Of a stretch of 45,522 nucleotides of DNA, positions 2,449 to 31,762 are shown one piece after another; position 1 is the stretch's first letter, and the number at the start of each line of letters is the position of its first letter. The notes beneath the pieces are model-generated. The model was given only the letters and a program-made list of their open reading frames with translations, was not told where the DNA came from and searched no databases. The stretch comes from an uncultured Eubacterium sp. (lineage in GTDB: Bacteria; Bacillota; Clostridia; Oscillospirales; Acutalibacteraceae): positions 1 to 45,522 of the forward strand of contig NZ_CAMFQO010000011.1 of NCBI RefSeq assembly GCF_945980375.1, given 5' to 3'. Made by a program: the position numbers and the translations under genes.

Positions 2449-2723
2449 AGACTGTCGATAAAGTGGGCTGAAACACGCCATATAAATTAAACAAACCGAT
2501 TTGAGCCTCACTTGTGTAAAGGGAGGTGGCAACGCGTATGCGTTGACGGAGGGATTGTAAAAGCGGCTTAGACATCGAATCTAAGCCGCTTTTGGCGTTT
2601 TTCGCCTTTTGCTCGGTCGAGGTACCCTCGTACATCTTCCCTCACAAAATGCGAAATTCAGCACCATTTCTCAACAGTCTACCAGCGTGTCGAAATTTAT
2701 AATTTGACTTTTTCGACACGCTG
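2449..2723. repeat. MITE-like structured repeat, copy A
   Basis: Non-coding element repeated in inverted orientation at 31490-31762. Imperfect 24-nt terminal inverted repeats (2449-2472 and 2657-2680) share AGACTGT at the outer end and GCTGAA at the inner end, 19 of 24 positions matching. Inside are a hairpin CAACGC-GTAT-GCGTTG (2530-2545), a 14-bp perfect stem around AGCGGCTTAGA (2559-2572 with 2580-2593) and a GGCG/CGCC hairpin. A 14-bp stem-loop (2682-2695 with 2711-2724) lies just outside the right inverted repeat but is shared by both copies. The block common to both copies is 273 bp (2451-2723). It has no convincing ORF or transposase, so it would have to be mobilised in trans. Name and family are unknown to me. 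Confidence 0.8.
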
Positions 2724-31489: not shown

Positions 31490-31762
31490 CAGCGTGTCGA
31501 AAAAGTCAAATTATAAATTTCGACACGCTGGTAGACTGTTGAGAAATGGTGCTGAATTTCGCATTTTGTGAGGGAAGATGTACGAGGGTACCTCGACCGA
31601 GCAAAAGGCGAAAAACGCCAAAAGCGGCTTAGATTCGATGTCTAAGCCGCTTTTACAATCCCTCCGAGTGCGATAAATCGCACCCACCTCCCTTTACACA
31701 ATGGAGGCTCAAATCGGTTTATTTAATTTATATGGCGTGTTTCAGCCCACTTTATCGACAGT
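31490..31762. repeat. MITE-like structured repeat, copy B (inverted)
   Basis: Reverse complement of the block at 2451-2723, also 273 bp with no gaps. Outside one hairpin I count only three differences. Terminal repeats are at 31533-31556 and 31741-31762, the outer two bases of the latter being lost. The variable hairpin (31668-31683) is GTGCGA-TAAA-TCGCAC here, against CAACGC-GTAT-GCGTTG in copy A. The 14-bp central stem and the outer CAGCGTGTCGAAA stem-loop (31490-31502 with 31518-31530) are unchanged. No coding capacity. Confidence 0.82.

Follow-up and report, generated by a model that had tools for sequence, protein, structure and literature searches.

A composite repeat with a variable hairpin

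The window analysed here, the whole stretch of 45,522 nucleotides, carries two copies of a composite MITE-like repeat, copy A on the forward strand and copy B on the reverse strand (Table 1). It belongs to a source genome (G000) of 1.77 Mb in 53 contigs. Imperfect terminal inverted repeats (AGACTGTCGATAAAGTGG..., ...CCATTTCTCAACAGTCT), a hairpin module and two further hairpins, one central and one terminal, make up the composite. It shows the hallmarks of a MITE, namely terminal inverted repeats, many copies and an empty site in a relative; the last of these concerns copy A only, where the orthologous site in genome G013 has no composite and consists of some 80 intergenic bases. Also like MITEs it contains no long gene but, unlike them, it includes a second, independent REP-like module.

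Table 1. Positions of the composite repeat copies and of their parts in the window.
Feature	Position	Strand	Basis
Composite MITE-like repeat, copy A	2449..2723	+	aligned copies; empty orthologous site in G013
Left imperfect inverted repeat of composite, AGACTGTCGATAAAGTGGGCTGAAACACGCC	2449..2479	+	aligned copies
Outer hairpin of module, GCCTCACTTGTGTAAAGGGAGG	2505..2526	+	folding; counterpart in standalone copies of other Clostridia
5' foot TGG (other strand CCA)	2527..2529	+	
Variable hairpin, allele A, CAACGC GTAT GCGTTG	2530..2545	+	covariation, ssDNA folding, allele count
Base A and 3' foot CGGAGGGATTGT	2546..2558	+	
Central hairpin of composite	2559..2593	+	aligned copies
Right imperfect inverted repeat of composite	2651..2680	+	aligned copies
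Terminal hairpin of composite, CAGCGTGTCG...CGACACGCTG	2683..2723	+	aligned copies
Composite MITE-like repeat, copy B	31490..31762	-	alignment with copy A
Variable hairpin, allele B, GTGCGA TTTA TCGCAC	31668..31683	-	covariation, ssDNA folding, allele count
TGG foot and module outer hairpin, copy B	31684..31708	-	

The two copies differ mainly in one short hairpin. Copy A reads GGTGG CAACGC GTAT GCGTTG A CGGAGGGATTGT and copy B, on the minus strand, GGTGG GTGCGA TTTA TCGCAC T CGGAGGGATTGT, so that stem pairs 1, 2, 3 and 6 are changed on both sides, pairs 4 and 5 are identical and the loop is GTAT in one copy and TTTA in the other. The flanking arms are 100% identical over 177 nt and 96% identical over 79 nt, with three differences in 256 bases. 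The analysis confirms what an earlier note on this DNA had pointed out, that is, matched changes in four of the six base pairs together with a loop change in near-identical copies, and adds that the base 3' of the hairpin also differs (A in copy A, T in copy B). When each strand of the two copies was folded as single-stranded DNA, only 0, 1, 0 and 0 of 200 dinucleotide shuffles folded as well.

A 286-base composite query gave 62 matches in the source genome, many of which were partial or corresponded to the palindromic centre on the opposite strand. Five contigs (C26, C30, C39, C44 and C50) start inside the repeat, with matches from base 1, and repeat copies are therefore probably undercounted. 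Nineteen copies in this genome have the GGTGG/CGGAGGG form, five with allele A and 14 with allele B (one of them with a loop variant). Since the same two alleles recur in this way, an error in the sequence of a single copy is unlikely. No flank site is fixed between alleles A and B among these 19 copies, and both bases were found with both alleles at positions -43, -38, -20, +121 and +150 from the hairpin, once apparent violations caused by truncated copies or by host DNA at the edges had been excluded. The allele has thus been reshuffled against its flanks, and recombination (gene conversion) between copies with different alleles best explains the swap seen in the window pair. This supports in part the idea that the hairpin moved as a unit, although the exchanged tract may be longer than the hairpin itself. 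Alleles that are shared and reshuffled are not a copy-specific code, and the proposed bar-code function was rejected on this ground.

Related composites were sampled in G013 and G053, the best-matching genomes, as 11 copies with 81-94% identity to the window copy; a further composite locus, L246, was left out of this comparison. They carry another hairpin allele, whose stem has at least one true mismatch in five copies, wobbles only in three and perfect pairing in three, with mismatches undercounted in L235, L238 and L245, where stem ends were trimmed in scoring. Unmatched drift of the stem, which the earlier note had set against its own reading, is thus found in part, in five of the 11 related copies, and the module inside the composite looks like a passenger that is able to decay. 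By eye, L240 and L241 have a relative of allele A, CAGCACTTATGTGCTG, with a perfect stem; two paired changes and a single change in the loop separate it from allele A. With so few differences, ordinary compensatory steps can explain allele A.

The surroundings and other parts of the composite also vary. By eye, several copies have a hairpin of the same stem on both sides, sometimes with different loops, and no simple target-site duplication was established for them. These hairpins are terminator-like and flank L007, L008, L010, L016, L017, L021 and L022, with different loops in L022 and L017, as if insertion of the composite had duplicated or targeted terminators. The stems of the central hairpin vary by paired changes as well (GCGGCTTAGA, ACAGATTGAAC, ATGGCTTGGA and CTGCCTTGGA) around a nearly constant ACATCGA loop. 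The composites of L015, L019 and L020 are longer by about 110 bases, which include a stretch resembling a ribosome site and a short ORF; the ORF begins MKHNYKTAFCSMRNMFGR in L015 and MKHSYKTVF in L020. In L028 the GCAT/ATGC variable hairpin of the composite is present a second time, joined to the terminal hairpin, apparently through recombination at a short common stretch.

Hairpins of free sequence between constant feet

The module that holds the variable hairpin consists of an outer hairpin (GCCTCCCTT..AAGGGAGG), a TGG foot, a stem-loop of free sequence, one base and the foot CGGAGGGATTGT. What its copies have in common is GCCTCCCTTGTGTAAAGGGAGGTGG, the hairpin, the single base (mostly A or T) and CGGAGGGATTGT, and the outer flanks differ between them. 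The pattern GGAGGTGG-N8..38-CGGAGGGA matched in 27 of 60 genomes of the genus, in which a reversed control pattern gave no match. With one genome per species, the longer form of the module was found in at least 113 stretches and at least 124 occurrences, with at least 92 distinct hairpins, in records assigned to Clostridia, Oscillospiraceae, Eubacteriales and similar groups and, in a few cases, only to 'bacterium' or 'Bacillota'. Modules also stand alone, in tandem (with a spacing of 74 or 99 bases in some genomes) and, by eye, in inverted pairs, like non-autonomous derivatives. Additionally, a sister form, GGGGAGCTGT [hairpin] ACTGAGGGG (GCTGT/CTGAGGG), is matched exactly 29 times in the source genome, its stems being of four types or more.

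Across species, 156 distinct hairpins were collected between feet that are constant by choice of the search pattern. A hairpin was counted as palindromic if its stem had four or more pairs of which no more than one departed from Watson-Crick pairing. By this rule 142 of the 156 are palindromic, compared with 7.3 on average and never more than 16 when the hairpins were shuffled in 200 rounds. Covariation was scored on the 25 distinct 17-nt alleles that form one length class of the 156 and include those of the window; the regular expression for the module alignment covered only 14 sequences. In these 25 alleles 98% of the cells are paired, and the covariation score of 1.03 exceeds that of the shuffles (0.21; 0 of 500 as high) and that obtained with slid partners (at most 0.16). 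Of the five covariation measures one did not rise above the shuffles: all six pairs change on both sides, yet the shuffles reach a mean of 5.2 and match this value in 218 of 500 cases. Taken together, these data support a hairpin selected for its structure, as the earlier note had considered. Its description as hypervariable holds across species, with 156 alleles, but not inside the source genome, where there are two alleles and one loop variant.

The composition of the hairpins points to the strand that folds. Loops of three or four bases are of the G...A type in 88 alleles (47 GNA, 24 GNRA and 17 GNYA), of the complementary T..C type in none and of other types in 22, the remaining alleles having loops of other lengths (25) or stems of fewer than three pairs under a stricter rule (21). 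Stem mismatches across alleles are G-T in 19 cases, A-C in two and of other kinds in 14. The excess of G..A loops and of G-T over A-C mismatches indicates that the G-rich strand is the folded one. The first stem pair is C-G in 115 and G-C in 26 of the 156 alleles, the stem is 4-7 bp long in 140, and the base after it is A or T in 141, at a position where C would extend the stem.

DUF559 genes between inverted modules

An ORF beginning MQRKHN...LVP.AK.LRKNMTKEERHLWYDFL was found beside modules and encodes a DUF559 (PF04480) protein. There is no DUF559 gene in the window and the source genome has one copy, while 29 of the 60 genomes of the genus have matches above the curated Pfam cut-off. When 124 modules were collected regardless of genes, 35 had an ORF of at least 80 codons downstream on the tail side; six of these encode DUF559, and in all six the start codon lies five bases after the module pattern (matching GGAGGGA). 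Across the 60 genomes, module and DUF559 (at E below 1e-15) were both present in 20, DUF559 only in four, the module only in seven and neither in 29 (Fisher p 1.1e-6), in a tally where the genomes are related and a module beside DUF559 counts twice.

Furthermore, the GGTGG/CGGAGGG and GCTGT/CTGAGGG forms are the inverted left and right ends around DUF559 genes in the genus. The sister form stands inverted on the other side of several DUF559 genes bracketed by the module, in some loci so near that it encodes the last DUF559 residues (QSLSQLR). By eye, most full-length DUF559 loci have inverted ends, with subtypes ending in GGATGAGGTG/CACCTCATCC and GGTGGAGGG/CCCTCCACC. A model-free test for inverted repeats between the flanks was applied to 24 of the 30 loci of the genus, excluding L276, whose gene is cut by a contig end, and L279-L283, which are weak partial matches. 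Twenty of the 24 exceeded the 95th percentile of 531 control ORFs and 13 the 99th; the test is conservative because the controls hold at least three DUF559 genes (L262, L284 and L273, judged by score and length). The four loci below the 95th percentile were L257, L258, L270 and L272; by eye, L258 has both ends, L270 and L272 are without the left end and the right end of L257 is partial. L263 passes the test, but by eye its modules stand in reversed orientation. G013 has a whole DUF559 unit twice, in two locations whose similarity (87% over 695 columns) does not, as reported, extend beyond the unit. For the unit at L262 no empty site was found in G053 or in G000, in each of which the two flanks lie on different contigs.

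The DUF559 protein of the elements resembles the solved endonuclease-like protein 3hrl in sequence (E 4.9e-10). The best PDB matches of its AlphaFold2 model (mean pLDDT 77) were the catalytic domain of I-Bth0305I (E 2.0e-4) and 3hrl (2.5e-4), followed by PvuRts1I and, more weakly, Vsr (0.05). By its predicted fold, DUF559 is a Vsr/homing-endonuclease-like PD-(D/E)XK nuclease, similar to the Vsr-related nucleases I-Bth0305I, NGO0050 (3hrl), PvuRts1I and Vsr in modelled structure and, in the case of 3hrl, also in sequence. To our knowledge, no Vsr-related nuclease is known as the enzyme of a hairpin-ended repeat. A DUF559 protein of Caulobacter has been proposed as a Vsr-like mismatch-repair enzyme (PMC12907096), and the family may therefore have more than one role.

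Among known repeats, the module is most readily compared with two classes of REP. Like the GTAG REPs/REPINs that form REPtrons with a RAYT (TnpA-REP), it combines a short tag with a palindrome, reaches high copy number, occurs in inverted pairs and brackets a gene with inverted palindromes; strand-specific recognition of folded single-stranded DNA is a feature of that system (PMC8266576). Unlike them, it has no GTAG tag but the feet GGTGG and CGGAGGG, it brackets a DUF559 nuclease instead of a Y1 HUH transposase, and its stem is free between copies. The C-REPs of Di Nocera et al. (2013) are described as having a CGTC tag, a stem of 8-9 bp that begins with A-T pairs, a CCA-like tail and head-to-head dimers, and as apparently lacking a dedicated transposase, which was left as an open question (PMC3733652). 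The complementary strand of the module likewise reads CGTC, hairpin and CCA in allele A and 92 others of the 156 alleles, these 93 having a C-G first pair and an A after the hairpin, with the last C of the tag paired. The CCA-like tail corresponds to the TGG foot, present in both window copies and set elsewhere by the search pattern. In contrast to C-REPs, the first pair of the module is mostly C-G or G-C, its stem is shorter, its tag has the last C within the stem, and the remaining alleles show CGAG or another sequence in place of the tag. Because the GTAG tag is missing, no Y1 gene of the source genome is bracketed and the start and length of the stem depart from those of C-REPs, we filed the module under neither class and regard it as a variant of the REP type that goes with another enzyme.

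The reading that we favour, with a probability of about two in three, is that this hairpin forms the end, selected for its structure, of a family of REP-like elements in which feet and pairing are read by DUF559, and that in the window it is the passenger of a MITE. DUF559 is probably the partner enzyme of the module family. We infer that it would recognise the feet and the folded G-rich strand and cut there, perhaps nicking DNA that is single-stranded during replication, by analogy with the IS200/IS605 elements, for which the use of such DNA is described (PMC6006769), and with TnpA-REP, which recognises one folded strand (PMC8266576). The element would then spread as host copying inserts it after the nick, a putative route for the movement of its ends. 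If only feet and fold are recognised, the letters of the stem are free to change; selection would keep the pairing and the feet alone, while stems would drift by paired changes and be exchanged between copies. The window pair would represent such an exchange, among MITE copies that bring the module along as a passenger. The interpretation of the earlier note, taken as a whole, is partly supported.

Some observations would also fit a role as RNA, in which the module would be a 3'-UTR element that is transcribed, its stem maintained because it stabilises the mRNA or serves in its processing, with DUF559 merely nearby. The module RNA folds, and rough gene predictions place modules more often between convergent (19) or tandem (26) genes than between divergent ones (5), a count from which 74 of the 124 occurrences had been dropped (39 at a contig edge, 25 apparently inside an ORF and 10 too far from a gene). 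However, in tandem contexts the module is on the same strand in 16 cases and on the opposite strand in 10 (p=0.33), and among its tetraloops GNRA is not clearly preferred to GNYA. On both counts, action of the hairpin as DNA rather than RNA is favoured, short of proof. The z-score for folding is larger for single-stranded DNA than for RNA, no Rfam family matches the hairpin (in the window only RNase P and tRNA reached the gathering score), and the inverted ends around DUF559 would be left unexplained, all of which makes a role as RNA unlikely. Very unlikely, in our view, is mobilisation of the modules by an IS200/RAYT-type HUH transposase, as has been proposed for known REPs, with DUF559 as a passenger or host factor, even if tag, hairpin and dimers are shared with REPs (PMC3733652, PMC8266576) and Y1 transposase genes number three in the source genome. 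The module, searched for with two regular expressions, gave no match in these three loci with their 1.5 kb flanks, the third Y1 gene carries a different, GTAG-type repeat, and the bracketed gene is DUF559 and not Y1. The association of module and Y1 was rejected on the three genes of this genome. A separate observation concerns the Y1 transposase gene at L234:1315-1821 (Y1_Tnp match), which we take to be RAYT-like and which has palindromes of the GTAGGGGAGGGGC... type within its coding sequence.

The origin of the stem differences could also be mutational. If hairpin-templated (template-switch) mutation rewrote the stem as a unit, as the earlier note had considered, alleles would jump without intermediates; in this regard, where alleles of the same length differ at one pair only, the difference is compensated 138 times and one-sided 29 times (allele pairs, which are not independent events), and 103 changes are unable to pass through a G-T wobble. 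Nevertheless, the nearest neighbour of the same length shows no stem change for 63 of the 156 alleles and a single one-sided change for another 35, some of these alleles having poor stems. Moreover, a locus with three modules common to G013 (L247) and G053 (L253) keeps the same three hairpins in both genomes, and recombination between copies accounts for the window pair. We hold rewriting of the stem as a unit to be improbable. Homogenisation only, in which two old MITE subfamilies with different hairpins swap segments and no enzyme is linked to them, agrees with the two alleles in 19 copies, their free assortment with the flanks and the decay of the hairpin in related genomes. It fits the window but not the conserved feet, the Clostridia-wide covariation or the DUF559 brackets; it is insufficient given the covariation across species, and improbable as the full account, yet it remains valid as one part of the explanation.

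DUF559 loci beyond the Clostridia

A tblastn search with one DUF559 protein returned 37 plasmid-collection records and three phage records, and 29 of these 40 loci were examined. In 18 of the 29 the flanks contain a significant inverted repeat (p<0.01 in 300 dinucleotide shuffles, L291 being at the limit), in Deinococcus, Sphingomonas, Novosphingobium, Sphingobium, Qipengyuania, Azospirillum lipoferum, Sinorhizobium meliloti, Synechocystis, Picosynechococcus, Pseudanabaena and two gut phage scaffolds; loci of one genus, for example the four of Deinococcus, are not independent. The 11 loci without significant inverted flanks came from Shinella, Azospirillum (three), Photobacterium, Sinorhizobium (one), Synechocystis (one), N. 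gonorrhoeae, E. coli, Thermoactinomyces and one soil phage, and some of them have hairpins on one side only. For L300, one of the two gut phage scaffolds, the inverted repeat that reached significance differs from the module, a copy of which sits to the left. In Novosphingobium the letters of the feet are identical, GGGGAGGTGG [CATTTGC GCCA GCAAATG] ACGGAGGGG.

A much wider claim is that repetitive palindromes have a second superfamily, spread across bacteria, and that DUF559 proteins are its enzymes, missing until now. They would cut, in the manner of Vsr or homing endonucleases, at folded hairpins that have fixed feet but no fixed sequence, and so move the elements that end in them; this would be a transposition mechanism different from those of HUH, DDE, serine and tyrosine enzymes. 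We advance this tentatively, at somewhat below even odds. The repeat-bracketed nuclease gene looks like a mobile element that had not previously been put together; titles and the first lines of abstracts gave no link between DUF559 (COG2852) and repeats in a search that most subscription journals lay outside, and an earlier description is possible. Palindromes of the REP type are widespread in bacteria. Should DUF559 prove to be the partner enzyme of such repeats, a role would be assigned to a 'domain of unknown function' that is annotated in many genomes, and unexplained intergenic repeats of gut Clostridia, Alphaproteobacteria, Deinococcus and Cyanobacteria could be tested together as a single mobile system. 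In addition, a stem of free sequence and fixed shape is a natural experiment on structure-only recognition of DNA.

Lastly, the positions of some of these loci are what insertion would produce. On plasmids of Sphingomonas parapaucimobilis (L319 and L323), DUF559 and its inverted ends lie inside a transhydrogenase cluster, between two subunit genes, and on another record inside the suf cluster, between sufB and sufC. In Pseudanabaena galeata (L324), a DUF559 domain with inverted flanks is found within an annotated gene of 4.9 kb, as if the element had inserted in frame.
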